From: Thermus antranikianii DSM 12462
GTDB taxonomy: Bacteria > Deinococcota > Deinococci > Deinococcales > Thermaceae
Direction of reading: 5' to 3'
Assembly (NCBI RefSeq): GCF_000423905.1
Contig: NZ_AUIW01000002.1
Coordinates: 1 to 64,000, forward strand
Length of the DNA stretch: 64,000 nt
Shown here: piece by piece, positions 4,842 to 19,733 of the stretch
Numbering within the stretch: the first letter of the stretch is position 1
Layout: the number at the start of each line of letters is the position of its first letter
Made by a program: the position numbers and the translations under genes
Notes under the pieces: generated by a model
The model's database searches: none
Told to the model about the DNA's origin: nothing
Seen by the model: only the letters and a program-made list of their open reading frames with translations

Positions 4842-6085
4842 AGGTGCTGGTGGTGGGTTCCGGGGGGCGGGAGCACGCCCTCCTTTGGAAGGCGGCGCAA
4901 AGCCCCCTGGTGGATCGGCTCTACGCTGCTCCCGGCAATGCCGGGATGGCGGCTTTGGCGGAGTTGGTTCCCTGGAATGGAGACGTGGAGGCCCTGGCGG
5001 ACTGGGCTTTGGCCGAGGGGATAGACCTCACCCTGGTGGGTCCTGAAGCCCCCTTGGTGGAGGGCATCGCCGATGCCTTCCAGAAGCGGGGCCTTTTGAT
5101 TTTTGGCCCCACCCAGAAGGCCGCCATGATCGAGGGTTCCAAGGCCTTCGCCAAGAGGCTTATGGAGCGCTACGGCATTCCCACGGCCCGGTACCGCGTG
5201 TTCCAGGATGCCCTCCTGGCCCTGGAGTACGTGGAGAGCGTGGGTGTACCCATCGTCATCAAGGACTCCGGCCTGGCGGCGGGCAAGGGGGTGACCGTGG
5301 CCTTTGACCTGCACACCGCCAAGCAGGCTATCCTCAACCTTCTCTCCGGCCCTGAGGGGGGGGAGGTGGTGGTGGAGGAATACCTGGAGGGGGATGAGGC
5401 CACGGTGCTGGCCTTGACCGATGGCGAAACCATCCTGCCCCTCCTGCCCTCCCAGGACCATAAGCGCCTGCTGGACGGGGACCAGGGGCCCATGACCGGG
5501 GGCATGGGGGCGGTGGCCCCTTACCCCATGGAGGCCGCTACCCTCAAGCGGGTGGAGGAGGAGATCCTGAAACCCTTGATCCAGGGCCTGAGGGCGGAAG
5601 GAGTGGTCTATCGGGGGGTAGTCTATGCCGGCTTGATGCTCACCCAGGAAGGCCCCAAGGTGCTGGAGTTCAACGCCCGTTTTGGCGACCCCGAGGCCCA
5701 GGCCCTTTTGCCCCTTTTGCGGAATGACCTGGTGGACTTGGCCCTGAGGGTGGTGGAGGGTCGGCTTAAGGGAACGGAACTGGCCTGGCGGGAGGAGGCT
5801 TCCGCCTGCGTGGTTCTGGCGGCTCCTGGTTACCCGGAAAGCCCGAGGAAGGGGATTCCCCTCCATGTTCCTGAGCCGCCGGAAGGGGTTCTGGTCTTCC
5901 ACGCCGGGACCCGGTGGGAGGGGAACAGCCTGGTGAGCGCCGGGGGGCGGGTTCTGAACGTGGTGGGGTTAGGGAAAACCCTGGAGGAGGCCCTTTCCCG
6001 GGCCTATGGCTTCATTCCCCAGGTGGGCTTCCCTGGGGCCCAGTACCGGAAGGACATAGGCCGCAGGGCCCTCCGCCTGCGTTAG
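4838..6085 (+). CDS. purD: Phosphoribosylamine-glycine ligase
   Basis: A 415-residue GAR synthetase, which joins phosphoribosylamine and glycine using ATP. It begins MKVLVVGSGGREHALLWK, the standard PurD N-domain motif. The ATP-grasp centre is seen in PIVIKDSGLAAGKGVTVA, the loop LPSQDHKRLLDGDQGPMTGG, and VLEFNARFGDPEAQ, which carries the metal-binding Glu and Asn. The length is normal for the family. It is the last gene of the plus-strand run FAH, MBL, purN, purD and is followed by a convergent gene 11 bases away, with no clear terminator between. Confidence 0.95.
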   Translation: MKVLVVGSGGREHALLWKAAQSPLVDRLYAAPGNAGMAALAELVPWNGDVEALADWALAEGIDLTLVGPEAPLVEGIADAFQKRGLLIFGPTQKAAMIEGSKAFAKRLMERYGIPTARYRVFQDALLALEYVESVGVPIVIKDSGLAAGKGVTVAFDLHTAKQAILNLLSGPEGGEVVVEEYLEGDEATVLALTDGETILPLLPSQDHKRLLDGDQGPMTGGMGAVAPYPMEAATLKRVEEEILKPLIQGLRAEGVVYRGVVYAGLMLTQEGPKVLEFNARFGDPEAQALLPLLRNDLVDLALRVVEGRLKGTELAWREEASACVVLAAPGYPESPRKGIPLHVPEPPEGVLVFHAGTRWEGNSLVSAGGRVLNVVGLGKTLEEALSRAYGFIPQVGFPGAQYRKDIGRRALRLR

Positions 6086-6096
6086 GGGCTTCGCGG

Positions 6097-8010
6097 TCAG
6101 TACTTGAGCCTGGCCAGGGGCAATCTGGCGCAGGCCCTGAGCACCTCCCCCAGGGTGCGGTAGCCCTTGGCCCTGAGGAGGGGGACCATTCCTGCGAAGA
6201 CCTCTGCGGTCATGAGGGCATCCCCCAAGGCGGTGTGCCGGCCGATCACGGGCACGCCGAAGCGTTCCGCCAGGGTTTCCAGGCGGTGGTCCTGGAGGTC
6301 GGGGAAGAGCAGGTAGGAAAGGAGCAGGGTATCCACCAAAGGGGGCTGGTCGATCCCCACCCGCCGTAGGAAGGCCATGTCAAAGGCCCCGTTGTGGGCT
6401 AGGAGCACCGTGTCCTCCAGGAACAGGCGAAACCCAGGGAGCACCTCCTCCAGCTTGGGCTTTTCCTTCAGCATTTCCCAGGTGAGGCCGTGGATCTCGG
6501 TGGAGGCCTTGGGAATGGGGCGTCCAGGGTTGACCAGGGCCTCGAAGACCTCGTGGCGGAGCACCTTTTTCCCGAGGATGTGGACCGCCCCTAGGGCGAT
6601 GATGGCGTCCTTTTCCGGATCCAGGCCCGTGGTTTCCAGATCGAAGGCAGTGTACAGGAGGCCCTCCAGGGGAGCCTCTTCCAGTTCCTCGGGGGCGTGG
6701 AGCAGGGAGAGGTCGAAGACCTCGGCCCGGGGGGGAGGTCCTATCTTGGCGGGAAGCCGGGGGGCTTCCCGGGCGGGGAGGAGGAGGTGAAGGTGGGATC
6801 CTGCCCACCAAGCGCTCCCGCCGGACTTCTCCACCGCCTCCTTGAGAAGAGGGGGAAGGTCGGGGTGGGCGCCCCCTGGGCTTATAGGGGGCTTGGGCAG
6901 GGTGAGGGTGAGGTGGAGCAGGTTGCCCTCCCGCCTCCCCTCCAGGAAGGCTTCCTCCTCGTCCCTTAAGGCGGCGGCCAGGCCTCGAGCCAAGGCGTAG
7001 GTGTCCGCCTGGACCAGGAGGTTTCTGGCTTCCCCCTCCAGGGAGAACCCTGGGGAAACCCCTGTCTCCCGCTCCAGGGCCTGGGCCAGGAGGGCTAAAA
7101 GGTCTTCCGCCAATACCTCCGCCGCCTGGGCCGGGGCTTCCCAGGAGGCCACCAGCTGGCCGAGCTCCTCGGCGGTGGCCTTGGCGGTCTTGAGAAGGGG
7201 CTCGAGGGGGGTTCCCCTGGCTTCCTGGTCCAGGGCTTCCGCCAGGGCCTTGAGCCCCGCCAGCTTGTCCTTGAGGCGGTGGAGGAGGGCGGCATCCCAT
7301 CCGCCCTTTTCCCGGGCCTCCTCCAGGAGGACCAAAAACCCTCCCTCCCCCTCCAGGGGCACCACCTGGAGCCAAAGCGGTCCCTCGGGACCCTGGGTTA
7401 AAAACCGCTTCTCCGGCAGGCCCAGGGCGTGGACCATGAGCTCCCGGTCCAAGAGGCCGAAGAGGCTTTTGCCCACCCCTAGGCCCTGCCCCAGAAGCTC
7501 CCGGGCCCCCTGGTTGTAGAGGAGGACCTGGCCCTTGGGGTTGGCCAGCACCACCCCGTGGGGGAGGTGGCCGACGAGGGCGGAAAGCTTCCTCCTCTCC
7601 TCCTCCAGGAGGGATTTGGCCTCGGCGATGCGCGCTGCCACCTCCTTTTCCAAGGCCTCCTTTTCCTGGGCCAGGCGGTTGATGAGGTCCGCCAGGGCCC
7701 TGAGCTCAAAGGGCCCCCGGAGGCGCAGGCGGTGGCCAGGGTTGGCCAGGAGGATCTCCGCCTCCTGGCCCAGGGCCCGGGTGGCGGCCAGGTAGCCCAG
7801 GAAGACCGGGTAGAGGAGGGCGGCCAGCACCAAGGTGAAAAGGAAGCCCACGAAAAGGAGCACGGGTAGCTTCGCCTGAGCCAAGCGGAGAAGTTCCTTT
7901 TTCAGGCTCTCCTCCCCTTGAAGGAGGAGGAAAAGGCCCAGGCCCACGGTCCCCCCCACCAGGAGGAGGCCCAGAAGAAGGGCTCCCAAAAAGCGCAAGG
8001 TTTCCCTCAT
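6097..8010 (-). CDS. PAS / degenerate histidine kinase fused to DEDDh exonuclease
   Basis: A 637-residue membrane protein. Two helices (about 8-30 and 47-72) are followed by a HAMP-like coiled-coil (90-145), a PAS-like domain (145-235) and a dimerisation helix keeping His244 in LLHRLKDKLAGL. Next comes a segment in the place of an ATPase domain (about 300-412) that lacks the N-box Asn and the DxGxG box. Residues 450-620 are a DnaQ-type 3'-5' exonuclease with all catalytic residues: Asp457 and Glu459 in DLETTG, Asp544 in AHNGAFDMAF, and His592 and Asp597 in RHTALGDA. It overlaps the response-regulator gene by ATGA. Sensor-controlled nuclease activity at the membrane is an inference. Confidence 0.85.
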   Translation of the reverse strand: MRETLRFLGALLLGLLLVGGTVGLGLFLLLQGEESLKKELLRLAQAKLPVLLFVGFLFTLVLAALLYPVFLGYLAATRALGQEAEILLANPGHRLRLRGPFELRALADLINRLAQEKEALEKEVAARIAEAKSLLEEERRKLSALVGHLPHGVVLANPKGQVLLYNQGARELLGQGLGVGKSLFGLLDRELMVHALGLPEKRFLTQGPEGPLWLQVVPLEGEGGFLVLLEEAREKGGWDAALLHRLKDKLAGLKALAEALDQEARGTPLEPLLKTAKATAEELGQLVASWEAPAQAAEVLAEDLLALLAQALERETGVSPGFSLEGEARNLLVQADTYALARGLAAALRDEEEAFLEGRREGNLLHLTLTLPKPPISPGGAHPDLPPLLKEAVEKSGGSAWWAGSHLHLLLPAREAPRLPAKIGPPPRAEVFDLSLLHAPEELEEAPLEGLLYTAFDLETTGLDPEKDAIIALGAVHILGKKVLRHEVFEALVNPGRPIPKASTEIHGLTWEMLKEKPKLEEVLPGFRLFLEDTVLLAHNGAFDMAFLRRVGIDQPPLVDTLLLSYLLFPDLQDHRLETLAERFGVPVIGRHTALGDALMTAEVFAGMVPLLRAKGYRTLGEVLRACARLPLARLKY

Positions 8011-8366
8011 CGTCCTCCCGCCAGCTCCTCCACCTGGGAAAGGAAGTCCTGGATGCCAAAGGGCTTGGCCATGAAGGCCTCGGCTCCCAGGGCCAAGGCC
8101 TTGGCCCGGTCCGCCTCCCGCCCTCGGGCGGTGAGGACCAGGACCTTGGGCCTTTGGGATAGGGTCTTGGCCCGCTCCAAAACGGCGAAGCCATCCATGC
8201 CCGGAAGCATGAGGTCCAAGACCATGAGGTCAAAGGCTCCTCGGGATAGGGCCTCGAGGGCTTCCTCCCCCGTGCGGGCCAGAACCACCTCGTGCCCGGC
8301 CTTCTTCAAGAGGAACTCCAAAGGCACCAGGATGCTTTCCTCGTCGTCCACCACCAGGATCCTCAT
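8007..8366 (-). CDS. Single-domain response regulator (receiver only)
   Basis: A 119-residue CheY-like receiver. Asp7 and Asp8 in VVDDEE bind the metal, Asp51 in LMVLDLMLPG is the phosphorylation site, and Thr79 and Lys101 (AKPFG) complete the set. There is no DNA-binding output domain. The start at 8366 is chosen because it begins the receiver strand directly; a longer open frame upstream has no family similarity. The gene lies between a histidine kinase and the PAS-exonuclease gene, so it is the natural phospho-acceptor. Its output must come from protein contacts, perhaps with the exonuclease protein. The kinase frame overlaps its first 137 bases. Confidence 0.93.
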   Translation of the reverse strand: MRILVVDDEESILVPLEFLLKKAGHEVVLARTGEEALEALSRGAFDLMVLDLMLPGMDGFAVLERAKTLSQRPKVLVLTARGREADRAKALALGAEAFMAKPFGIQDFLSQVEELAGGR

Positions 8367-10902
8367 GCTCCACCTCCAGGGGAAGGGTGAAGGCGAAGGT
8401 AGCGCCCTCCCCCTCCTCCAACCAGATCCGTCCCCCCAGGCTTTCCACCAGCCTCCGCGCCAGGAAAAGGCCAAGGCCCGTGCCTCCGGAGAAGCTCTGG
8501 AAGGGTTCGAATACCAAGGCCCTGGCCTGGGGAGGCACTCCTGGACCGTCGTCGGAGACCCGGAAGAGGGCCTCGCGGTTGGTGAGGGTAAGCTCCAGGT
8601 GTACCCGGCTTCGGGCGTGGCGCAGGGCGTTGTGGAGGAGGTTCAAAAGCACCTGGAGGACCCGGTCCCGGTCCGTGAGGGCTTGGACCCCCGCCAGATG
8701 GGACTCCATTGTAATCCCCCTTTCCCGGGCTAAGGGTTCCACCAGGGCCAGGGCTTCCTCGGCTAGGGCCCGAAGGTCCGTGGGGCTGCGGGAGAGGGGC
8801 ACCCCTGCCTGGAGCCGGGTGTAGGCCAGGATCTCCTCCACCAGGCGGGAGAGCCTGGCGGTTTCCTTGACCAGAAGGGACACGAAGCGCCCACGCTCCT
8901 CCTCGGGAAGGTCGGGGTTGGCCTCGAGGATCTCCGCCAGGGCCCGTACGGCGGTGAGGGGGGTTTTGAGCTCGTGGGAAACCGCAGCCAGAAGCTCGTC
9001 CTTGGCCTGGTCCAGGGCCTTCAGGCGCTCGTAAGCCTCGGCGAGCTCCTTCCTGGCCTCCTCGAGGGCCTGGGCGTAGGCCCGAAGCTCCCGGGATTCC
9101 CGGGCTGCTTCCTCCACCTCCTCCCGCAGGGCTTCCGGGGGGGCCTCCCGGGTGACGGAGAGGAGGAGGAGCTTGGCGGTGGCGGGCCCCACGGACCCCG
9201 CCAGCAGGGTTTCCGCAAGTCCCGCTGCTTCCCGGCCCGGGAGGGCCCGGGGGCCTGACCCCGGTCCCCCAGATGGCCTACTCGCTGCTTCCCGGCCCGG
9301 GAGGGCCCGGGCCTGATGGCGGAAGCTTTCCTCCGCCTCCGGCCCCAAGACCCGCCTGAGGAGGGCGGCGAGCTCCTCCACCTCCCCGGTGCGCTCCTCC
9401 TGCAAGGCCTTCCGGCGGGTGAAGAGGGAAACCCCGAGGGTCAGGGCCAGGTTCAGGGTGAGGCTCGCCAAAAACCCGTGGGTCACGGGATCCAGGCCCC
9501 GGATTCCCAAAAGCCCTTCCGGCCTTAAGAGGGGATGGGGGCCTTCCAGAAAGAAGGAGGGGAGCCAGCCCGAGCGGGCCAGGGCGGGAAGGAAGAGGGT
9601 ATAAGCCCAGACGAGGATCCCTCCCAAGAGGCCCGCCAGGGCCCCTTGGGGGGTGGCTCCCCTCCAGAGGAGCCCGAGAAGGCCCGCCGGGGCCAGCTGG
9701 GCCACGGCCACAAAGGAGATGAGGCCCATGGCCACCAGGGCGTAGGCCTCTCCCGCCAGGCGGAAGTAGAGGTAGGCCAGGAGCATCACCGCCAGGATGG
9801 AGATCCTTCGCCAAAGGAGGAGGCTTCCCAGGGCACGGAAGCGGAGGAGGAGGGGGGAGAGGAGGTGGTTGGAAATGAGGATGGAAAGGGCCAGGCTTTC
9901 CACCACCACCATGGCCGTGGCCGCTGAGACCCCGCCCAGGAAGGCCAGAAGGGCCAAAGGAGCGCTCCCAAGCTCCAGGGGCAGGGCCAGCACGTAGAGG
10001 TCCGGGTTCCCTTCAGGCAGGAGAAGCCGGCCCCAAAGGGCCAGGGGAAGGATGGGCAGGTTGATGAGGAAAAGGTACAGGGGGAAGGCCCAGGCTGCCA
10101 GGCGGAGGTGCCGAGGGTCGGTGTTTTCCACCACGCTCACGTGGAACTGCCGGGGCAGGAAGAGAAAGGCGAGGCCAGAAAGGACCACCAGGCTCGCCCA
10201 CTCCAGGTAACCGGTAAGGCCCTCCTGGGGGAGGAGGAGGGGGAGGAGCTCGGGATGGCCTTGGATCCTGGGAAGGGGATTCCCCATCTGCCAAAGCACC
10301 AGCCCCCCCACGAGGAGGAGGGCTAGGAGCTTCACAAAGGACTCAAAGGCCACCGCCAATACCAGGCCCCGGTGTCGTTCCGAGGGATCCAGGCGGCGAG
10401 TTCCGAAGAGGATGGCGAAGAGGGCCAGGAGCAGGGCGGTGGGGAGGGCGATGTCCGTGGGGGGCTCCTCCTCGCCGCTGAGGAAGAGAAAGGCTTGGGC
10501 GATGGCCTTGAGCTGCAGGGCCAGGTAGGGAAGCAGGCCCACCACCAGAAAGGCGGCGGCCAGGGGGCCCAGGAAGCCATGGCCGAAGCGCAGGTAGAGG
10601 AAGTCAGCCCAGGAGGTGAGGCGGTGGGCGCGGGCCAGGGAGAGCAGTTTTTCGTGAAGAAACGGCCAGAGGAGGAGGACCAGGGTAGGCCCTAGGTAGA
10701 TGGGGAGGAAGCTGGCTCCTTCCACGGACGCCCAGCCCACGCTTCCCATAAAGGTCCAGGCGGTGGCGTAGACCGCCAGGGAGAGGGTGTACGCCCAGGG
10801 GCTTTGGACCAAAAAGCGTCCCCGCCCTTCCCCCAGGAGGGCCACCAGGAAGAGGAGGCCCAAGTAGAGGAAAAGGCTCAGGAGGAGAAGGAAGGGGTTC
10901 AT
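8230..10902 (-). CDS. Sodium/solute symporter-like sensor histidine kinase (CrbS/CbrA type)
   Basis: An 890-residue hybrid. Residues about 1-500 carry some 13 membrane helices of the SSS/SLC5 symporter fold, with YATAWTFMGSVGWASVEG near the start as in CbrA/CrbS proteins. A linker and coiled coil lead to HisKA with His643 in VSHELKTPL, then a complete ATPase domain: NLLHNALRHA (N box), SDDGPGVPP (G1) and GGTGLGLFLARRL (G2). CrbS-type kinases in other bacteria control acetyl-CoA synthetase genes, which matches the acs genes nearby. No PAS or STAC domain is evident. About 46 residues after LPLEVEHEDPGGG read across the response-regulator gene and look like a lost stop or frameshift. Confidence 0.9.
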   Translation of the reverse strand: MNPFLLLLSLFLYLGLLFLVALLGEGRGRFLVQSPWAYTLSLAVYATAWTFMGSVGWASVEGASFLPIYLGPTLVLLLWPFLHEKLLSLARAHRLTSWADFLYLRFGHGFLGPLAAAFLVVGLLPYLALQLKAIAQAFLFLSGEEEPPTDIALPTALLLALFAILFGTRRLDPSERHRGLVLAVAFESFVKLLALLLVGGLVLWQMGNPLPRIQGHPELLPLLLPQEGLTGYLEWASLVVLSGLAFLFLPRQFHVSVVENTDPRHLRLAAWAFPLYLFLINLPILPLALWGRLLLPEGNPDLYVLALPLELGSAPLALLAFLGGVSAATAMVVVESLALSILISNHLLSPLLLRFRALGSLLLWRRISILAVMLLAYLYFRLAGEAYALVAMGLISFVAVAQLAPAGLLGLLWRGATPQGALAGLLGGILVWAYTLFLPALARSGWLPSFFLEGPHPLLRPEGLLGIRGLDPVTHGFLASLTLNLALTLGVSLFTRRKALQEERTGEVEELAALLRRVLGPEAEESFRHQARALPGREAASRPSGGPGSGPRALPGREAAGLAETLLAGSVGPATAKLLLLSVTREAPPEALREEVEEAARESRELRAYAQALEEARKELAEAYERLKALDQAKDELLAAVSHELKTPLTAVRALAEILEANPDLPEEERGRFVSLLVKETARLSRLVEEILAYTRLQAGVPLSRSPTDLRALAEEALALVEPLARERGITMESHLAGVQALTDRDRVLQVLLNLLHNALRHARSRVHLELTLTNREALFRVSDDGPGVPPQARALVFEPFQSFSGGTGLGLFLARRLVESLGGRIWLEEGEGATFAFTLPLEVEHEDPGGGRRGKHPGAFGVPLEEGRARGGSGPHGGGSPRGPIPRSL
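9223..9311. repeat. 60-bp spaced direct repeat inside the kinase gene
   Basis: A 29-base sequence at 9223-9251 recurs exactly at 9283-9311, and the following GCCTGA also matches. It encodes ARALPGREAA twice, at about residues 531-560, between the symporter and kinase halves. It looks like a recent in-frame 60-bp duplication that lengthens the linker by 20 residues. Confidence 0.8.
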
Positions 10903-11075
10903 GGTCGGCGGAACAGGAGGTAGGCCAAAAGCACCACCAGGCCCCAGGAGCCGTAGAGGTAGAGGTAAAGGGGGGGAAGCCCCCAGGGCCCCAGGGGGCT
11001 GGGGAAGACCAGGCTTACGGGGAAGAGGAAAAGGAAAAGGGCCAGGAGGAAAAGGGCGAAGGACCTCTCCTTCAT
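10899..11075 (-). CDS. Small membrane protein, 58 residues
   Basis: MKERSFALFL begins a 58-residue protein with two hydrophobic helices (about 6-25 and 33-53) and a basic tail FRRP. Its 3' end overlaps the symporter-kinase start by ATGA, and its start overlaps the end of the CNB-CBS-DUF294 gene, so translation of all three is coupled. I do not recognise the family. The position suggests an accessory of the kinase or of the neighbouring symporter, comparable to the small DUF4212 subunit upstream. Confidence 0.65.
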   Translation of the reverse strand: MKERSFALFLLALFLFLFPVSLVFPSPLGPWGLPPLYLYLYGSWGLVVLLAYLLFRRP

Positions 11076-12820
11076 CGCAGCTGGAAGCGGCTTGCGGTGC
11101 TTTCCTGCATCTCGGCGATGGCCCGGAAACCCTCGAGGGCCTTCCGCCGTTCCCCTGGGGATAGGCTGGACCAAAGCACCCGGTTGCTCACCTCTCCACC
11201 CCGCTCCAGGGCCCGTAGCTGGTGTTTCAGGCGCAGGGCGAAGAAGAAACGGAAGGCCTCCTCGAGGCGTTCCGCTCCCTCTTGGCTTAGGGTGCCTCCC
11301 TCCGCCGCCGCCTTAAGCCTTTCCACCGTGCCCTTGGCCAGGCTTCCCGCCATGAGGGCGTAAAGCCGGGCCAGGGCCACGATGGGGGCGAGGGCGTGGC
11401 GCTTCAGGTCTATAAAGCCCTCCTCGGTACGCACCCTGCCGAAAAGGCCCAAGGGGGGGCGGAAGGCCAGGCTGGCCTGGGCCAGGTGGTAGCGGAACAC
11501 ACCTTTTTGGCTTCCTTCCAGAACCGCTTCCTCCAAGGGCTTCAGGGAAAGGCTTCCTGCGGCGGAGCGGAAATCGAAAAAGATCTGGGTATCCAGGAGG
11601 GCCTGGGGCTCGGGGGCCTCCATCCAGCGGCGGAAGGTGGCCACCCACTCCCCCAGGGGAAGCCGCCAGCGGGTGGCCATGTACCCCCCCTTGCACTCGG
11701 GAATCCCCGCCCGCAAAAGCCCCTCCACTACCCGCTCCGCCAGAGCCTGGAAGTAGGCTTCGTGCCCGGGTTCGGCCAGGACCAGGGCGTTGTCCTGGTC
11801 GGTCAAAAGGGCCTGCTCCCGGCGCCCTTCCGAACCGAAGACCATGAAGCTGTAGGCCACGGGAGGGGGTCCCAGCGCTTCCTCCGCTTCCTTGGCCAGG
11901 CGGCGGATCAGGGCGTCGTTGAGGGAGGCCACCACCCGGCCGATCTCCAGCCCCCCCAGGCCCCGGGCGAAGAGGCCTTCCACCAGGTGGGCCACCTCGA
12001 GGCTGTACCGCTCCAGCTCCAGGCGCTCAATCCGCCGCAGGAGCAGGAGGGGGCTTTGCGCCTGGTGCAGGAGGAGGTCGGTGTGGGTCACCACGCCCAC
12101 CACCCTTTCCCCTTCCGTGAGGGGCAGGTGGTGGATGCCCCGCTCCACCATGGCCGCCACTGCCTCGTAGAGGGGGGTTTCCGCCGGCAGGGCGAAGAGG
12201 GGGGCGGTCTGCACCTCCGCCACCCTTGTGGTGGGGGGACGGCCCTCGGCCAGCACCCGGTTGCGCAGGTCCCGGTCGGTGAGGATGCCCAGGGGTTCCC
12301 CAGCCACCAGGAGGCTGGAGATGCCCTCCTGTCGCATGATGCGGGCCGCCTCCGCCACCGTGGCCGAAGGGGGGATGAAGACGGGCTCCTTGCGCACAAG
12401 CCGCCCCACCGGGGCGAAAAGGGAGAGGTCGGGGGCCGCCTTCAGCCGCACCCGCTCCGCCAGCCCCTGCCCGAAAAAGCGGGCCGCCTCCGGGTGGGCG
12501 AGAAGCCGGTGGAAGGTGGCCTGCGGGAAGACCAAAAGCCGCACCGGCCCCTCCGCCTCCACGCTGAAGGCAGGGGCCTCCCCCGAAAGGAGGGAGGGGA
12601 AGCCGAAGAACTCCCCGGCCTCCAAAACCCCCACCTTTTCCTCCCCGTCCAGAAGGGCCACCTTCCCTTCCAGCACCAGGTAGAGGGCCTCCGCCGGCCT
12701 CCCGCCCTGCTCCAGGAAGCGGGTGCCCGCGGGGTGGGCTTCCTCCTTGGCCTCCTGGAGGAGGGCTTCCCGCTCAGCCTCGGGAAGGGCGCTCAGGGGT
12801 GGGACCGTTCTTGGGTCCAT
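11072..12820 (-). CDS. CNB / CBS-pair / DUF294 nucleotidyltransferase-like protein
   Basis: A 582-residue cytosolic protein with four parts: a cyclic-nucleotide-binding beta barrel (about 15-125), two CBS repeats (about 145-260, each with a TDRD/THTD-like nucleotide loop), a DUF294 nucleotidyltransferase fold with FMVFGSEGRREQALLTDQDN (about 320-350), and a helical DUF294 C-terminal domain. This family is regularly found beside acetate-type sodium symporters (VC_2705 subfamily), as here. It probably senses adenine nucleotides and may modify or bind a partner; the reaction is unknown. The start at 12820 lies 47 bases inside the preceding gene. Confidence 0.88.
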   Translation of the reverse strand: MDPRTVPPLSALPEAEREALLQEAKEEAHPAGTRFLEQGGRPAEALYLVLEGKVALLDGEEKVGVLEAGEFFGFPSLLSGEAPAFSVEAEGPVRLLVFPQATFHRLLAHPEAARFFGQGLAERVRLKAAPDLSLFAPVGRLVRKEPVFIPPSATVAEAARIMRQEGISSLLVAGEPLGILTDRDLRNRVLAEGRPPTTRVAEVQTAPLFALPAETPLYEAVAAMVERGIHHLPLTEGERVVGVVTHTDLLLHQAQSPLLLLRRIERLELERYSLEVAHLVEGLFARGLGGLEIGRVVASLNDALIRRLAKEAEEALGPPPVAYSFMVFGSEGRREQALLTDQDNALVLAEPGHEAYFQALAERVVEGLLRAGIPECKGGYMATRWRLPLGEWVATFRRWMEAPEPQALLDTQIFFDFRSAAGSLSLKPLEEAVLEGSQKGVFRYHLAQASLAFRPPLGLFGRVRTEEGFIDLKRHALAPIVALARLYALMAGSLAKGTVERLKAAAEGGTLSQEGAERLEEAFRFFFALRLKHQLRALERGGEVSNRVLWSSLSPGERRKALEGFRAIAEMQESTASRFQLR

Positions 12821-13145
12821 AGTCCGGGGTAATCCAGGCCAGGAGGGGGATGAGGAAGTGCAGGGCCACCTGGCCTCCCAGGAGGAGGGTAAAGCCCATC
12901 CCCAGCACGAAGGCCGGAGGAAGGAGGACCAGGAGCCGCACCACCCGGCCTATCCCCACCGGGGGCAGGGGCCAGATCCGGTGGTAGATGCGGCCCAGCC
13001 CCACCCCCACCAGGGCCCCCAGGGCCAGCTGGGCCAGGATGCCCGGGGTGGGAAAGGGGAAGCCCAGAAGGTAGTGCCCCCCCAGGTAAAAGGCGAAGAG
13101 GGCGGTCAGGCTGCCCAGGAAAAAGCGAAGGTAGCGTAGGTCCAT
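12774..13145 (-). CDS. Membrane protein of unknown function, 123 residues
   Basis: A protein with about three to four hydrophobic helices (residues 7-28, 33-52, 65-85 and 88-105) and a polar tail ITPDYGPKNGP. No family is recognised. It starts just downstream of the symporter terminator, with TAAAGT at 13151-13156 as a possible -10 box placing the transcript start at or next to the ATG. Its end overlaps the CNB-CBS-DUF294 gene by 47 bases. It is the first gene of the signalling run that continues to the PAS-exonuclease. Confidence 0.65.
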   Translation of the reverse strand: MDLRYLRFFLGSLTALFAFYLGGHYLLGFPFPTPGILAQLALGALVGVGLGRIYHRIWPLPPVGIGRVVRLLVLLPPAFVLGMGFTLLLGGQVALHFLIPLLAWITPDYGPKNGPTPERPSRG

Positions 13146-13167
13146 GCCTCACTTTACCCAAACCGAA

Positions 13168-13187
13168 GGGCCCCCTTGCGGGGGCCC
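13168..13187 (-). terminator. Hairpin terminator after the symporter gene
   Basis: GGGCCCCC (13168-13175) and GGGGGCCC (13180-13187) form an 8-bp stem with a 4-base loop, 6 bases after the symporter stop. The minus-strand flank TTCGGTTT is only moderately T-rich. It probably ends or weakens symporter transcripts before the signalling genes. Confidence 0.65.
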
Positions 13188-13192
13188 CTCGC

Positions 13193-14863
13193 CTAGTGCT
13201 CGGCGGCCGCTCCTGCCCCCTTGGGCACCCGGATCTCGTCCACCAGCTTCTGGATCTCCGCGGGGGGCGGGGGCGTGGCCCGGGAGACCAGGTAGGCCAC
13301 CAGGAAGTTGAGGAGCATGCCCACGGTGCCGATGCCCTCAGGGGAGATGCCGAAGAGGAAGCGGGGCCAGCCCAGGTAGTTGGTGCCCACGATGTAGGTG
13401 GCGGTGAAGACCAGGCCCACCAGCATCCCCGCCACCGCCCCTTGCGTGTTCATCCGGCGGTCAAAGATGCCGAGCAGAATGGCGGGGAAGAAGGTGCTGG
13501 CGGCCAGGCCGAAGGCGAAGGCCACCAGCTGGGCGATGAAGGCCGGGGGGTTGATGCCGAAGGGGGCGGCCAGCACCGTGACCAGGAGGATCACCACCCG
13601 GGCGATGGTGAGCTTGGTGGCCTCGGAGGCCTGGGGGTTGATGATGCGGGTGTAGAGGTCGTGGCTGATGGCGCTGGCCATGACGATGAGGAGGCCTGCC
13701 GCCGTGGAAAGGGCCGCCGCCAGACCCCCAGCCGCCACCAGGCCCACCACGATGGGGGAGAGCTTGGCCACCTCCGGCGTGGAGAGCACGATGATGTCCC
13801 GGTCAATGGTGATCTCGTTGGTGTCCTTGGCCGCGGTGATCTGGTACTTCCCGTCCCCGTTTTTGTCCTCCAGCTTGAGGAGGCCGGTCTTGCTCCACTT
13901 CTGCACCCAGTCAATCCCCTGGACCTCCTCCACGGTCTTGTTGGCCAGGGTGTTCAGGAGGTTGTACTTGGAGAAAACGGCCACGGCAGGAGCGGTGGTG
14001 TAGAGGAGGGCGATGAAGAGCAGGGCCCAGCCGGCGCTCCAGCGGGCGTCGGAGGCCTTGGGCACCGTGTAGAAGCGGATGATCACGTGGGGCAGGCCCG
14101 CGGTGCCCACCATGAGGGTCAGGGTGATGAGGAAGACGTTGAGCAGGTTCAGGTTCTGGAAGGGGGCCACGTACTCCTTGAGGCCCAGCTCCACCTGGAG
14201 CTGGCTGAGGCGCACGGCGAAGTCGGAGAAGGTGAAGGCCAGCTGGGGGATGGGGTTGCCGGTGAGGAAGTTGGACAGGGCGATGCCGGTGATCAGGTAG
14301 GCGATGATGAGCACGGTGTACTGGGCCACCTGGGTCCAGGTGATGCCCTTCATCCCCCCGATCACCGCGATGAAGGCGGTGACGATCACCGCAGCCCAGA
14401 CCCCCGTGGCCACGTCCACCCCCAGGTAGCGGGAGAGCACGATGCCCACGCCCCGGAGCTGGGGCACCGCGTAGGTGAAGGAGACGAAGATGGCGGCGAT
14501 CACCGCCACCACCCGGGCCAGGTTGGAGTAGTACCGGTCCCCCACGAACTCGGGCACCGTGTACTTGCCGTACTTCCGCAGGTAGGGGGCCAGGAGGAGG
14601 GCCAGGAGCACATACCCCCCGGTCCAGCCCATCAGGTAGACCGCCCCGTCGTAGCCCAGGAAGGAGATGAGGCCCGCCATGGAGATGAAGCTGGCGGCAG
14701 ACATCCAGTCGGCGGCGGTGGCGGCCCCGTTGGCTATGGGGGGTACCCCGCGCCCGGCCACGTAGAAGCCGGCGGTTTCCCGCACGCGGGCCCAGTAGCC
14801 GATGCCGAGGTAGAGGGCGAAGGTGGCCAGCACGATGATCCAGGTCCAGACTTCAGCGCTCAT
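13193..14863 (-). CDS. Sodium:solute (acetate-type) symporter, large subunit
   Basis: A 556-residue protein of the SSS family, VC_2705/ActP-like branch, with about 13 membrane helices. The N-terminus has VAGRGVPPIANGAATAADWM and SAASFISMAGL, the conserved cation and substrate region of this branch. A hydrophilic insert near residues 325-350 (LLKLEDKNGDGKYQI) faces one side of the membrane. It imports short carboxylates with Na+. It follows a DUF4212 small subunit by 11 bases, which is the standard two-gene arrangement. Two acs genes upstream would activate the imported acid. Acetate, propionate or a related acid are possible; the substrate is not fixed by sequence. Confidence 0.9.
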   Translation of the reverse strand: MSAEVWTWIIVLATFALYLGIGYWARVRETAGFYVAGRGVPPIANGAATAADWMSAASFISMAGLISFLGYDGAVYLMGWTGGYVLLALLLAPYLRKYGKYTVPEFVGDRYYSNLARVVAVIAAIFVSFTYAVPQLRGVGIVLSRYLGVDVATGVWAAVIVTAFIAVIGGMKGITWTQVAQYTVLIIAYLITGIALSNFLTGNPIPQLAFTFSDFAVRLSQLQVELGLKEYVAPFQNLNLLNVFLITLTLMVGTAGLPHVIIRFYTVPKASDARWSAGWALLFIALLYTTAPAVAVFSKYNLLNTLANKTVEEVQGIDWVQKWSKTGLLKLEDKNGDGKYQITAAKDTNEITIDRDIIVLSTPEVAKLSPIVVGLVAAGGLAAALSTAAGLLIVMASAISHDLYTRIINPQASEATKLTIARVVILLVTVLAAPFGINPPAFIAQLVAFAFGLAASTFFPAILLGIFDRRMNTQGAVAGMLVGLVFTATYIVGTNYLGWPRFLFGISPEGIGTVGMLLNFLVAYLVSRATPPPPAEIQKLVDEIRVPKGAGAAAEH

Positions 14864-14874
14864 GGGCGTTCCTC

Positions 14875-15126
14875 CTAGTCCTCAAAGCCGTACTTCCGGT
14901 CCAGGGCCGCCATGCGGCTGGCGTAGTAGAAGATGAGGATGACGAAGACGTAGATGCTCCCCTGCTGGGCGATCCAAAAGCCCAAGGGGGGCCCGCCGAA
15001 GACCCGGATAGCGTTCAGGGGCTCGGCCAGCAGGATGCCCAGCACATAAGAGGCCAAGGCCCAGATGATGAGGAGGTTTCGGATAAGACTTAGGTTTTCC
15101 TTCCAGTATGCCTCCAGCGCGCTCAT
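14875..15126 (-). CDS. Sodium/solute symporter small subunit (DUF4212)
   Basis: An 83-residue membrane protein with two helices (about 16-37 and 47-70). It has the DUF4212 features YWKENLSLIRNLLIIWALAS at the start and FPW-like GPPLGFWIAQQGSIYVFVIL further on. It partners the large SSS subunit encoded next. The ATG at 15126 has GGGAGGGAG just upstream and is preferred over the longer frame that starts in the 5' leader. Confidence 0.9.
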   Translation of the reverse strand: MSALEAYWKENLSLIRNLLIIWALASYVLGILLAEPLNAIRVFGGPPLGFWIAQQGSIYVFVILIFYYASRMAALDRKYGFED

Positions 15127-15144
15127 AACTCCCTCCCCCGCTCG

Positions 15145-15224
15145 GGAAGCGCTACAGGCGCTTCCTGGCACAGGCTTCCCTCGCGGTTAGCGGCCATCTT
15201 AGGGAAGGATGAGGGGGGTGTCAA
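15145..15224 (-). promoter_or_regulatory. Symporter-operon promoter and leader hairpin
   Basis: On the minus strand TTGACA (15219-15224), a 17-base spacer and TAAGAT (15196-15201) make a near-consensus promoter. The -35 is embedded in TTTCTTGACA, also seen at the two acs-region promoters near 19.8 kb. The leader holds an exact hairpin, GGAAGCGC (15145-15152) with GCGCTTCC (15158-15165), whose arms resemble the LacI-type palindrome at 1652-1661. The rest of the gap between the symporter operon and the upstream terminator (15225-15296) shows nothing recognisable. Confidence 0.75.
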
Positions 15225-15340: not shown

Positions 15341-17224
15341 CTACTCCTCCAGGGTGGAGAGGTCTCCCGGGTCCTTGCCCAGTTCCCGGGCCTTCAGGAG
15401 GCGCCTGAGGATTTTCCCCGAGCGGGTCTTGGGCAGCTTGTCCAGGAAGACGATCTCGCTGGGGGTGGCGATGGGCCCCAGTTCCCGGCGCACGTGCTGG
15501 ACCAGGCCCTCCTTCAGCTCTTCGGAAGGGGTTTGCCCTAGGCGCAGGACCACAAAGGCCTTGATGGCCTCCCCCTTCAGGGGGTCGGGCACCCCGATCA
15601 CCGCGGCCTCGGCCACTGCCGGGTGGGAGACCAGGGCGCTTTCCACATCCGCGGTGCCGATGCGGTGCCCGGCCACGTTCAAGACGTCGTCCGCCCGGCC
15701 GAGGACGCTGAAGTAGCCCTCCTCGTCCTGGCTCGCCACGTCCCCAGCGGCGTAGACCCCGCCCGGGACCTCGCGCCAGTACTGGAGGTAGCGCTCGTGG
15801 TTGCCCCAGACGGTGCGCATCATGTGGGGGAAGGGGCGCCGGAGGACCAGAAGCCCTCCCTGCCCTGGGGGCACGGGCCTGCCCTCCTCGTCCACCACCC
15901 CCGCCTCCACCCCAGGCAGGGCCACCCCGGCGAAGCCGGGTTTGGCCGGGAACACCAGGGGGGTGCCCAGGGTGGGCCCGCCCAGCTCCGTCTGCCACCA
16001 GTTGTCGGCCACAAAGCCCCGCCGACCCCCATCCACCAGGTGCTGGTAAGCCCAGCGCAGGGCCTCGGGGTTTAAGGGTTCCCCGGCCACGGCGATGAGG
16101 CGCAGGGAGGAAAGGTCGTATCGGGCAGGCCACTCGGGGCCGAACTTCATGAAAAGGCGCACCGCGGTGGGGGCGGTGAACATCACGTTCACCCGGTGGC
16201 GCTCCACCACCTGCCAGAAGGCCCCGGGGTCGGGGTAGTCGGGGGCTCCTTCCCGGAGGAGGCTGGTGACCCCCTCCAGGAGGGGGGCGTAGACGATGTA
16301 GGAGTGGCCCACGATCCAGCCGATGTCGCTGGTGGCCCAGAAGAGGTCGTCGTCCTTTACGTCGAAGAAGGTGCGCAGGTGGTAGGTGGTGCCCACCATG
16401 TATCCCCCGTGGACGTGCACCACCCCTTTGGGTTTCCCCGTGGAGCCGGAGGTGTAAAGGATGAAGAGGGGGTGCTCCGCCTCCACCATCTCTGCCCGGG
16501 CCTCTGGGGGGCTTCCCCAGAGGATTTCCTGGAAGTCGTAATGCCCCTCGGGAAGCTCCGCCTGGAAGGCCCGCTGGAACCAGACCACCTGGAGGGGCAG
16601 GTCCTTGATGGCCTCCTCCACGATGGAGCGGAGGTCCACTCCCTTGCCCCTTCGGTAGCTCACATCCCCGGCGATGAGGAGCTTGGCCCCGGCGTCCAGG
16701 ATGCGTTCCCGCAGGGCGCTCACCCCAAGCCCGGCGTAGACCACGCTGTGGATGGCCCCCAGGTAGGCGGTGGCCAGCATGGCCAGGATGCCCTCGAGGG
16801 TTAAGGGCATGTAGATGACCACCCGGTCCCCCTTCTCTACCCCAAGGCGCCTAAGCCCCGTGGCCAGGCGGCGCACCCGGTCCAAAAGCTCCCCGTAGGT
16901 GAGCTTCTCCTCCCGGCCGTCCTCGGAGAGGTAGAGGAGGGCCACCTTGTTCCTCAGGCCCCTTTCCACATTGCGTTCCAGGGCGTTGTAGACGGCGTTG
17001 GTGGTGCCTCCCAAGAACCAGCGGTGCTCGGGAAGGTTCCACTCGAGGACCTTTTCAAAGGGCTTCTCCCAGTAGAACCTCCGGGCCCATTCCCCCCAGA
17101 AGCCCTCGGGGTCCTCGAGGCTTCGCCGGTACTCTTCAGGGAAATTCTGGAGATTCGCCCTAAGGCGCACCTCCTCCGGGGCCCAAAGCCGTTCCTCCGC
17201 CTTAAGAAGCTTTTGCACCACCAT
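15341..17224 (-). CDS. Acetyl-CoA synthetase-like acyl-CoA ligase
   Basis: A 627-residue AMP-forming ligase of the AcsA type. It shows [20 protein letters not shown] (P-loop), DNWWQTELGG (acyl pocket with the double Trp), [20 protein letters not shown] (hinge region) and [11 protein letters not shown] with Lys604, the lysine usually regulated by acetylation. It activates a short carboxylate to acyl-CoA through acyl-AMP. The canonical acs on the other side of the fusion gene has DTWWQTETG, so this paralog may prefer another acid such as propionate; that is inference. The start MVVQKLL overlaps the fusion gene by 23 bases, so the two are coupled. Confidence 0.9.
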   Translation of the reverse strand: MVVQKLLKAEERLWAPEEVRLRANLQNFPEEYRRSLEDPEGFWGEWARRFYWEKPFEKVLEWNLPEHRWFLGGTTNAVYNALERNVERGLRNKVALLYLSEDGREEKLTYGELLDRVRRLATGLRRLGVEKGDRVVIYMPLTLEGILAMLATAYLGAIHSVVYAGLGVSALRERILDAGAKLLIAGDVSYRRGKGVDLRSIVEEAIKDLPLQVVWFQRAFQAELPEGHYDFQEILWGSPPEARAEMVEAEHPLFILYTSGSTGKPKGVVHVHGGYMVGTTYHLRTFFDVKDDDLFWATSDIGWIVGHSYIVYAPLLEGVTSLLREGAPDYPDPGAFWQVVERHRVNVMFTAPTAVRLFMKFGPEWPARYDLSSLRLIAVAGEPLNPEALRWAYQHLVDGGRRGFVADNWWQTELGGPTLGTPLVFPAKPGFAGVALPGVEAGVVDEEGRPVPPGQGGLLVLRRPFPHMMRTVWGNHERYLQYWREVPGGVYAAGDVASQDEEGYFSVLGRADDVLNVAGHRIGTADVESALVSHPAVAEAAVIGVPDPLKGEAIKAFVVLRLGQTPSEELKEGLVQHVRRELGPIATPSEIVFLDKLPKTRSGKILRRLLKARELGKDPGDLSTLEE

Positions 17225-19733
17225 ATTCCTCCTCCAATACAGAAACATCTCCAGGGTCTAAGCCCAGGAGCTCCGCCTTTAGGAGCCGTCTTAGGATCTT
17301 GCCGCTTCGGGTACGGGGCAGGCGCTCCACGAAAACCACCCGGGGAGGGGGAACCGGTCCCAGGTGCCGCAAAAGGTGGGCTTTGATCTTCTCGGCCAGG
17401 AGGGCCTTGAGCTCCTCGGGCACCTCCTTCTTGGGAACCGCAAAGACCACGATTTCCTCGCCTTCCTCCCCGGGGATCCCGATGGCGGCTGCCTCCGCCA
17501 CCTGGGGGTGGGTGAGGGCGGCCGCCTCCACCTCGGCGGTGCCGAGCCGGGCCTCCCCCACCTTGATGACCTCCTCGGAGCGGCCCAGGATGCGAAAGTA
17601 GCCTTCCTCGTCCCAGGTGGCGAGGTCCCCCGTCCAGTAGAGCCCACCCCGCCAGGGGCTTTCCCCCCCAAGGAGGTCCACCATGTGGGCCGGCCCTGCC
17701 CTCAGGAGCACCAGGTGGCCCTTGGCCCCTGGAGGGAGGACCTGCCCTTCCCCGTCCACCACCCGGGCCTCCACCCCGGGCAAGGGGATGCCCACGAAGC
17801 CCGGCTTGGCGGGGAGGGTGAGGGGGGTGGCCAGGGCAGGGGCCCCCAGCTCGGTCTGCCACCAGTTGTCCAGGGGCCAGGCCAGGTTCTCCCGGGTCCA
17901 GCGCCACACCTCAGGGGCCAGGGCCTCCCCCACGCTCCCCACCAGGCGCAAGGAGGTGGGCCGGGCTTCCCCGTGGCGGCGCAGGGTGCGGAGCACCGTA
18001 GGGGAGGTGAGGAGCACGTCCACCCCGAACCGCCTTAGCCTCTCGTAGAAGGCGGCGGGGTTGGGGTGGTCCGGCCGGTCCTCCACCAGGAGGCTGGTAC
18101 CCCCCAGGAAGAGCGGGGCGTACAGGCCGAAGGAATGCCCCACCACCCAAAAGAGGTCGGCGGTGGTGTGGAAGACCTCTCCCGGTTTCAGGTCAAAGAG
18201 GTAGCGGAGGGCCCAGCTTACCCCCACCATGTACCCTCCGTGGCCGTGGACCACCCCCTTGGGCTTGCCCGTGGAGCCCGAGGTGTGGAGGATGAAGAGG
18301 GGATGCTGGGCGGGAACGGGGACGGCGTCCGCGGGCTTTCCCTCCGAGGCCCTTTCCAGAAACTCCGTGGTGCCCCGGGTGTGCCAGAGCACGGGAAGAT
18401 CCAGGCCCGAAAGGGCTGCCTCCACCACCGGCCTTAAGGGGATGAGCTGGCCCCGGCGGAAGTAGCCGTCGGCGGCCACCAGGAGACGGGCTTGACCCTG
18501 CAGGAGCCGCTCCCTTAAGGCTTCCGGGCCCAGGCCCACGGGCAGGGCCACGTGCACCGCCCCAATCCGTGCCAAGGCCAGGAGGCTCAAGGCGGCCTCC
18601 AGCCCCGTGGGCAGGTAGAGGGCCACCCGGTCCCCCCGCTTTACCCCTAGGGCCTGGAAGACCCCGGCGAGGCGGCTGGAGAGGTCCAAAAGTTCCCGGT
18701 AGGTCCACTTTTCCAGGTGCCCATCCCCATCCAGGGTGATGAGGGCCACCTGCTGGGCCTTTTCGGGCAGGTGGCGGTCTAAGGCGTTTAAGGCGGCGTT
18801 GGTCCGCCCCCCACCGAACCAGGTGTGGGTGGCAGGGTCATAGACCCTTTCCCAAGAGGTTTCCCAGTGGAACTCCCGGGCGAAGCTGCCGAAAAAGCTT
18901 TCGGGATCCTCGAGGCTTGCCTGGTAGGCCCTGGGGTAGTCCCGCAGGTTGGCCCTTTCCTTAAGGGCGCAGGGGGGTTCCACCACCTCCACCTGGAGGC
19001 TCGGTTCCAAGGGAGGGGCCAGGCTGGGGGGCTCGGGGGGGCGCAGGTGGGCGGACACCTGGGCCACCTCAGAAAGGGCCCGGGCCAGGCGGCTGAAGGC
19101 GAAGGGGAAGCGCCGGGCGGGCACCACCACCCCCAAAGCCCCCAGAAGCTGCCCCTCGGGGCCGAAGAGGGGGGCCGCTAGGCCGGAAAGCCCCTGGGCG
19201 TACTCCTCCATCTCCGCCGCCAACCCCGACTCCCGCACCCGGGCCAGCTCCTCCTCCAGGGCCAGGGGGTCGGTGAGGGTATAGGGGGTGCGGGGGCGCA
19301 AGGGGGGAAGGGGCAGGGCCCCGTGGGCCAGGAGGACCTTCCCCAGGGCCAGGGCGTGGGCTTCCTCCGGCAGGCTCTCCCCCAGGGGGTGGGGCTGGCC
19401 CTGCCGGCCCCGGGTTTTGAGCCGGATCCCTTCCGGGGTCAGAAGGGCCAGGTAGCACCGCTCCCGGGTGCGGAGGTAGAGTTCCTCCAGGGCCTCCTCG
19501 AGGGGCGTGGTCTCCAGCCGGAGGGGCTTGGCCTGGCCCAGGCGGTATCCCCGCTCCGTCTTCACGGCGAAGCCCTCCTCCGCCAGGCTGTTGAGAAGGG
19601 CGTAGGCGGTGGAGAGGCTCTTCCCCAGGAGGCGGGCCACCTCCTTTACCCCCACCCCTTCCGGGTGCTCGGCCAGGTAGGCCAGGATGCGCAGGGCCGC
19701 CTGGACCGTGGAAAGGCTCCTCTTCCTGGCCAT
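17202..19733 (-). CDS. IclR-type regulator fused to an acetyl-CoA synthetase-like enzyme
   Basis: An 843-residue single open frame. Residues 5-62 are the IclR winged helix-turn-helix (ALRILAYLAEHPEGVGVKEV, then GKSLSTAYALLNSLAEEGF). Residues about 75-228 are the IclR ligand domain, with GLSGLAAPLFGPEGQLLGAL. A proline-rich linker (about 230-255) leads to a complete AcsA-like ligase: [46 protein letters not shown] and RTRSGKILRR with Lys812. The hinge motif is altered (GRSEEVIKVGEARLG instead of GR.DDV..VAGHRLG), so catalysis may be weakened. It is divergent from acs and upstream of the second ligase. An enzyme-linked regulator of acyl-CoA synthesis is the inferred role. Confidence 0.92.
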   Translation of the reverse strand: MARKRSLSTVQAALRILAYLAEHPEGVGVKEVARLLGKSLSTAYALLNSLAEEGFAVKTERGYRLGQAKPLRLETTPLEEALEELYLRTRERCYLALLTPEGIRLKTRGRQGQPHPLGESLPEEAHALALGKVLLAHGALPLPPLRPRTPYTLTDPLALEEELARVRESGLAAEMEEYAQGLSGLAAPLFGPEGQLLGALGVVVPARRFPFAFSRLARALSEVAQVSAHLRPPEPPSLAPPLEPSLQVEVVEPPCALKERANLRDYPRAYQASLEDPESFFGSFAREFHWETSWERVYDPATHTWFGGGRTNAALNALDRHLPEKAQQVALITLDGDGHLEKWTYRELLDLSSRLAGVFQALGVKRGDRVALYLPTGLEAALSLLALARIGAVHVALPVGLGPEALRERLLQGQARLLVAADGYFRRGQLIPLRPVVEAALSGLDLPVLWHTRGTTEFLERASEGKPADAVPVPAQHPLFILHTSGSTGKPKGVVHGHGGYMVGVSWALRYLFDLKPGEVFHTTADLFWVVGHSFGLYAPLFLGGTSLLVEDRPDHPNPAAFYERLRRFGVDVLLTSPTVLRTLRRHGEARPTSLRLVGSVGEALAPEVWRWTRENLAWPLDNWWQTELGAPALATPLTLPAKPGFVGIPLPGVEARVVDGEGQVLPPGAKGHLVLLRAGPAHMVDLLGGESPWRGGLYWTGDLATWDEEGYFRILGRSEEVIKVGEARLGTAEVEAAALTHPQVAEAAAIGIPGEEGEEIVVFAVPKKEVPEELKALLAEKIKAHLLRHLGPVPPPRVVFVERLPRTRSGKILRRLLKAELLGLDPGDVSVLEEEYGGAKAS

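Follow-up and report, generated by a model that had tools for sequence, protein, structure and literature searches.

A family of membrane-anchored DEDDh exonucleases with a dead histidine-kinase body, proposed to be gated by a lone receiver

In a 64,000-nt stretch of the Thermus antranikianii DSM 12462 genome (contig NZ_AUIW01000002.1; hereafter the window), we found a gene whose product joins a histidine-kinase-derived pseudokinase body to a DEDDh exonuclease. Judged by its motifs, the kinase part is dead and the nuclease is intact, and the protein belongs with the DEDDh exonucleases, not with the histidine kinases. The gene occupies exactly the interval given in the original prediction (6097-8010), and its coding strand is the minus strand (Table 1). 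Proteobacteria, Chloroflexota and Deinococcota all have full-length relatives, so that this is a family and not an oddity. The domain make-up, the dead ATP site, the intact nuclease residues, the conserved gene cassette and the co-occurrence of the DHp hairpin with a lone receiver can be read directly from the sequences. We propose, with a probability of roughly 55%, that the symporter-histidine kinase of the same operon phosphorylates the lone receiver, and that this receiver docks on the dead DHp hairpin and gates the nuclease.

Table 1. Features of the exonuclease gene and its neighbourhood in the window (residue numbers refer to the 637-aa protein).
Feature	Position	Strand	Evidence
Pseudo-histidine-kinase / DEDDh exonuclease, 637 aa	6097..8010	minus (ATG 8010, stop 6097)	ORF list, Pfam, full-length orthologs
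First membrane helix, residues 4-33	7912..8001	minus	hydropathy; helix 2-30 in model
Second membrane helix, residues 40-78	7777..7893	minus	hydropathy; helix 48-89 in model
PAS domain, residues 141-231	7318..7590	minus	Pfam, family scan, model
Degenerate DHp hairpin (240-290), putative docking site of the receiver	7141..7293	minus	model helices 240-263, 270-290; profile match to neighbouring kinase core
His244, phospho-acceptor register, unconserved in family	7279..7281	minus	alignment columns
ATPase-like (CA) fold lacking the ATP motifs (297-415)	6766..7122	minus	model, fold match, motif counts
Conserved linker, residues 426-437; R428, D433, L436 invariant in 66 rows	6700..6735	minus	alignment
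DEDDh exonuclease domain, residues 452-610 (D457 E459 D544 H592 D597)	6181..6657	minus	Pfam, residues, fold
Receiver-only response regulator, 119 aa	8007..8366	minus	Pfam; ATGA overlap with exonuclease start
Symporter-histidine kinase (CrbS-like), intact HisKA + HATPase_c	8230..10902	minus	Pfam
Small two-helix membrane protein	10899..11075	minus	ORF; similar small protein in Paracoccus cassettes
cNMP-CBS-DUF294 nucleotidyltransferase	11072..12820	minus	Pfam; catalytic pattern
Small protein	12774..13145	minus	ORF
ActP-like SSF symporter	13193..14863	minus	ORF, similarity

Hydropathy bears out the two membrane helices that had been predicted, with hydrophobic stretches at residues 4-33 and 40-78. 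The predicted PAS domain scores below threshold in the window protein itself (Pfam PAS_8 at residues 141-182, 18 bits where 21.8 are required), but PAS_4 was matched at E<=0.01 in 27/70 family members and the AlphaFold model has a PAS-like order of strands and helices at residues 152-231, so that this assignment stands as well. PAS residues L164, Y165, N166, G178, G180 and S182 are invariant in a 66-row alignment. At the other end of the protein, Pfam RNase_T covers residues 455-605 with an E-value of 2.4e-33, and the same domain was matched in all 70 family members scanned. The catalytic residues D457, E459, D544, H592 and D597 are each present in 106/106 family proteins, in agreement with the claim of an exonuclease with all five catalytic residues; its activity is predicted from these residues. 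The nearest solved fold is that of PolC (9qpc; Z 23.9, 191 residues, 2.1 Å), and DnaQ was also matched (2gui; Z 20.8, 159 residues, 1.6 Å). These proofreading exonucleases share the DEDDh fold and residues with the Thermus protein, whereas the latter carries a membrane-anchored signalling body and has no polymerase domain. We also considered an anti-phage function but set it aside: PADLOC matched the DEDDh domain only (Cas-associated DEDDh and PDC-S48 models) and found nothing in the two partner proteins tested.

Next, we analyzed the region between the PAS domain and the exonuclease. In the window protein, the Pfam HisKA match at residues 240-288 was non-significant (E=0.12) and there was no HATPase_c match. 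A motif count over the family proteins gave 0/106 for DxGxG, 0/106 for an NLLxNA-type N-box and 0/106 for GxGLGL. The symporter-kinases of these loci served as a control and showed the phospho-His in 76/76 rows and the N-box Asn in 75/76 (the window's own kinase being counted twice among these rows). The loss of the N-box Asn and of DxGxG, originally noticed in this one protein, is shared by all 106 family proteins, set against neighbouring kinases that retain the N-box Asn almost without exception.

A full-length AlphaFold model was built from the 66-row alignment (mean pLDDT 83, pTM 0.41). It has a helical hairpin at residues 240-263 and 270-290, then an ATPase-like order of strands and helices up to residue 415, and then the exonuclease. 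Because a fold search with this model returned, among the matches listed, only those to the exonuclease domain, residues 232-424 were folded separately (pLDDT 88.4, pTM 0.65). This yielded 186 Foldseek matches at E<=0.001, and those listed were histidine kinases or their kin, such as phytochromes and CheA. DivL (4q20) was level with the best aligner match, over the CA-like part (Z 11.6, 120 residues, 2.8 Å). When the sequence profile of the dead region was compared with the PDB, 5c93 gave an E-value of 4.3e-8 and DivL 4q20 one of 1.8e-5, and other histidine kinases (5c93, 4u7n) outscored DivL. The kinase core of the operon's own neighbour was compared with this profile as well, and was matched with 99.4-99.7% probability. 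Structure prediction of residues 240-420, which had been suggested as a check, thus gave a kinase-like fold and not its absence (232-424 alone, pLDDT 88), and the scaffold that had been described as reused is both real and, without its ATP motifs, dead. The presence of the DHp hairpin and CA fold of histidine kinases speaks for descent, not for activity.

The original prediction had also pointed to His244 in the dimer helix. The stretch around this residue, LLHRLKDKLAGLKAL, lines up with HELKTPLTAVRAL of the kinase encoded next to it, and in the profile comparison the proteobacterial TEGSRASL stands opposite THELRTPL of the neighbouring kinases. In the MAFFT alignment with the Proteobacteria, His244 is followed by a gap of 4 residues, which would set it against an unrelated His/Gln column (51 His and 43 Gln of 106). 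We rejected this gapped reading in favour of the ungapped one because TEGSRASL fits THELRTPL gap-free and Thermus then has a linker shorter by one heptad. Within the genus Thermus the phospho-acceptor position is His in 19/21 rows and Phe in 2/21. In 85 rows from outside the genus it is Glu (64), Asp (8), Gln (7) or another residue (6) and never His, and in a further 33 it is Glu (24), Asp (3) or another residue (6), again never His, so that His was found in 0/118 rows outside the genus (one locus being common to the two sets). Given these column counts, the exact phospho-acceptor register of His244 is genuine, but the residue is no feature of the family.

These counts bear directly on the proposal that the body is a receptor for a phosphate donor. 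A phosphorelay in which the receiver hands its phosphoryl group to His244 would agree with the exact H-box register and with the retention of His in most Thermus rows. However, the position is mostly Glu or Asp outside the genus, it is Phe in the two remaining Thermus rows, and it is Arg in a member of the window's own taxonomic family (G060) although the cassette there is intact. Histidine-kinase phosphatases need Thr or Asn at H+4, and the alignment has one of these at that position in 0/106 family proteins, which further speaks against the receptor role. Since His244 is no family feature, a phosphorelay role of the family is judged from the alignments to be unlikely; one confined to Thermus is conceivable. 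The H+4 count also bears on the idea that the pseudokinase regulates the receiver, as phosphatase, sink or scaffold, with the nuclease as a passive passenger. Receivers are common targets of histidine kinases, and the DHp is kept together with the receiver. However, apart from the H+4 residue, the receiver has no output domain and the nuclease residues are invariant, and we regard this explanation as quite unlikely.

In the window, the exonuclease is the last gene of an operon of overlapping genes, transcribed in the order DUF294 nucleotidyltransferase, small membrane protein, symporter-kinase, receiver and exonuclease. Overlaps of 4 nt join DUF294 to the small membrane protein, the latter to the kinase, and the receiver to the exonuclease. 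The symporter-kinase ORF has a low-complexity tail and shares 137 nt (8230-8366, minus) with the receiver gene; overlapping kinase/receiver ORFs were also seen in other Thermus loci, for example L042 to L044. The symporter-kinase matches HisKA (5.6e-16) and HATPase_c (3.3e-25) in Pfam, and SSF weakly (E 0.016). The nucleotidyltransferase pattern GS..R.[EQ]..[DN].D was found in 68/68 DUF294 copies checked. A sigma-70 scan of positions 5900-15200 gave no promoter-like site where 0.5 was expected, and is hence uninformative; the count of terminator-like sites in the same interval (6, against 8.7 in shuffles) is uninformative as well.

We then determined how widely the protein and its cassette are conserved. 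The family was found in 41/299 evenly drawn proteobacterial genomes and, at E<=1e-60, in 27/111 Deinococcota genomes, namely 25 Thermus and two others of the same taxonomic family; two genomes of the genus Thermus (G003, G013) have no member at this threshold. A translated search of plasmids identified co-linear relatives in Cupriavidus and Paracoccus; in Paracoccus, the five-gene order is the same at three loci, and DUF294, receiver and exonuclease are retained at a fourth. The best 80 loci of a genome-contig scan, mainly from Beta- and Gammaproteobacteria with three from Chloroflexota, were then compared. A receiver-only ORF adjoins the exonuclease in 67 of these 80, and a symporter-kinase lies upstream in 64. 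The cassette is shared by three phyla. Among the 69 loci with at least 4 kb of upstream sequence, 58 have both receiver and symporter-kinase, one has the receiver only and 10 have neither; the genomes of these 10 and of L098 (11/11) all hold a second family copy in a receiver and symporter-kinase cassette. The receivers are lone: 80/80 rows, the window's own being counted twice, have the phospho-Asp and at most 6 residues beyond the domain, with no output domain. An open-access literature search found no paper on the fusion or the cassette, which is weak evidence of absence given that subscription papers were mostly outside its scope.

This conservation has to be weighed against the idea that the protein is a housekeeping or repair DEDDh exonuclease with a non-functional sensor-kinase relic. 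Its closest solved folds are indeed those of replicative proofreading exonucleases, and in two Thermus genomes the frame is broken within the body at different sites. On the other hand, the full-length architecture is kept at 32-38% identity outside the Thermus genus, and at least one of the DUF294, ActP, Acs and symporter-kinase genes lies nearby in 70/80 of the best loci. We consider a relic very unlikely. The two broken genes (L031 and L032, in genomes G010 and G024) have body and nuclease separated, and the breaks fall in a variable loop of the CA-like region; sequencing error, decay and deliberate splitting are all possible.

Some loci have a different arrangement. In a divergent second subfamily (L157, L158 and L159), the C-terminus reads QANF in place of ARLKY and the symporter-kinase lies downstream of the exonuclease, not upstream, with the receiver still adjacent. 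At three receiver-less loci a protein of 172-174 aa is encoded between DUF294 and the exonuclease (L161 4664-5182, L162 4665-5186, L164 4377-4901); the one copy scanned had no Pfam match. ORFs similar to it were found in L197 and L200-L204, and beside a receiver in L193.

If the lone receiver acts on the dead DHp, the two are expected to be gained and lost together. In the 41 loci from the 299 evenly drawn proteobacterial genomes, a DHp match by profile (12 bits or more) was found in 31/31 with an adjacent receiver and was absent (1 bit or less) in 9/10 without one. The exception, L166, has a weak DHp match (31 bits, against a reference-set median of 95.6). Whole-genome searches of the 10 genomes with receiver-less loci found generic receivers only, at 36-44% identity, and L166, in genome G393, has the DHp with no orthologous receiver found; the positive controls reached 56-66% identity in 3/4 cases, while the fourth (G385) reached only 42%. 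In a pooled set of 128 rows, 101 have both, 15 have neither and 12 are discordant. Eleven of the discordant rows have a DHp without an adjacent receiver, and 10 of these come from genomes that hold another family copy within a receiver cassette; the remaining discordant row (L163) has a receiver and no DHp match by profile, yet a stretch of normal length remains there. The claim that the scaffold could be a conformational switch for the nuclease fits with this co-occurrence and with the neighbouring lone receiver.

Relatives without the DHp were also found. In G075, of the window's taxonomic family, the DHp is lost while membrane helices, PAS, CA-like domain and exonuclease are kept; in G003 and G013 only the exonuclease is present and the whole body is absent; none of these three genomes contains a symporter-kinase or an orthologous receiver. 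The relatives in Ruegeria and Limimaricola combine membrane helices and the exonuclease with a PAS-like region of low score, and have no DHp/CA match and no receiver, and a Rhizobium relative likewise has neither DHp match nor receiver. DHp-less relatives retain the exonuclease together with the PAS-like region, so that nuclease action is possible without DHp input. It is possible, though not likely, that the nuclease is gated by a ligand or membrane state which the PAS/membrane part senses on its own, with the receiver acting elsewhere. The relatives in these three genera, which keep membrane helices, PAS-like region and exonuclease, agree with this, as do the PAS columns among the invariant ones. 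However, it leaves unexplained both the joint presence and loss of DHp and lone receiver and the 4-nt receiver/exonuclease overlap in the Thermus window.

Shared ancestry weakens the case made by the co-occurrence of DHp and receiver. In the exonuclease tree, the DHp state changes at least 6 times. Of the 3 supported independent contrasts, 2.9 were concordant on average (median p 0.25), and with so few of them such tree-corrected tests cannot reach significance. When four regions were set against receiver identity in a mirror-tree comparison, given the kinase, the DHp correlated least (partial rho 0.38, against 0.55 for PAS, 0.70 for CA and 0.54 for the exonuclease). The similarity of the two DHp surfaces within a locus did not rise above the permutation level (z 1.1 and 1.2, with 0.3 and -2.2 in the controls). 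Neither of these covariation tests supported the docking proposal.

In the docking mechanism that we favour, the symporter-histidine kinase would sense a small carboxylate, by analogy acetate or pyruvate, and would pass a phosphoryl group to the receiver-only regulator. The regulator, having no output domain, would bind the dead DHp hairpin in its phosphorylated or unphosphorylated form, and the DHp/CA body would relay the docked state to the C-terminal exonuclease, with the PAS domain as a second input. The nuclease would in this way be switched on or off at the membrane, and RNA or nucleotide turnover would be adjusted during carboxylate use. The phosphotransfer, the docking, the gating and its sign, and the substrate are steps that we infer from the gene and domain arrangement. 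It is also conceivable, if speculative, that transceptor kinase, lone receiver and pseudokinase-gated membrane exonuclease form a two-component pathway whose output is post-transcriptional or at the level of nucleotides, and in which DUF294 opposes the nuclease: the former would add nucleotides to an RNA, nucleotide or protein target and the latter would remove them, tuning carboxylate uptake and activation. The retention of the nucleotidyltransferase pattern in every DUF294 copy checked allows for such opposing enzymes.

The closest precedent is DivL/DivK of Caulobacter. DivL has Tyr in place of the His, prefers the phospho-form of DivK without modifying DivK, and passes the DivK signal on by conformational change, as described in PMC5361649. 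According to the same source, DivL and DivK combine a histidine-kinase fold with a replaced phospho-His, a PAS domain, a single-domain partner regulator and a proposed reversed signal flow, and the exonuclease family is alike in these respects. Replacement of the phospho-His is true of the family, while the window protein itself retains His. A further difference is that DivL acts on the kinase CckA, whereas in the exonuclease family the body no longer has ATP motifs and is joined to a nuclease. By this analogy, the mode of action of the protein is probably that of DivL, but with an output of a new kind. PMC5361649 raises the question of whether signal flow is reversed via a pseudokinase in further two-component systems of bacteria; if our reading is true, the family would be a widespread case (41/299 proteobacterial genomes) with a nuclease instead of a kinase as output. 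It would also suggest a role for lone receivers without an obvious target, and the natural variants without the DHp, or without the DHp and CA, could serve as tests. The Pseudomonas putida exonuclease PP_0353 offers a second comparison, and is probably a short form without the body.

PP_0353 is a putative exonuclease in an operon under MxtR/ErdR control, MxtR/ErdR being homologous to CrbS/CrbR; its deletion slowed growth on pyruvate, while growth on acetate was normal, and mRNA degradation is one possibility raised by the authors (PMC9927547). It is an RNase_T protein encoded beside the CBS protein gene PP_0354 in an acetate/pyruvate regulon, and we liken it to the family by its description. 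If true, our reading would suggest a role for the unexplained exonuclease of acetate/pyruvate regulons described there (PMC9927547). In the CrbS/CrbR system, kinases with a symporter domain control acs (PMC5715377). CrbS/CrbR (MxtR/ErdR) and the SLC5/STAC kinases resemble the Thermus locus in the fusion of symporter and kinase near acs, actP and DUF294/CBS genes (PMC5715377, PMC9927547), and the MxtR/ErdR target operons include an RNase_T-family exonuclease (PMC9927547). However, CrbR as described is a transcription activator, whereas the Thermus regulator is a bare receiver of 119 aa with no DNA-binding part, and the Thermus exonuclease differs from that of the CrbS/CrbR system in carrying a pseudokinase body. 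Acetyl-CoA synthetase-like genes also lie on the flanks of the Thermus locus. In addition, an 843-aa ORF in the window (17202-19733, minus) joins an IclR-type regulator to an acetyl-CoA synthetase-like enzyme (HTH_IclR 3.7e-13, IclR_C 6.6e-16, AMP-binding 1.4e-71), and ORFs of similar length with Acs similarity were observed in L034, L035, L044 and L135.
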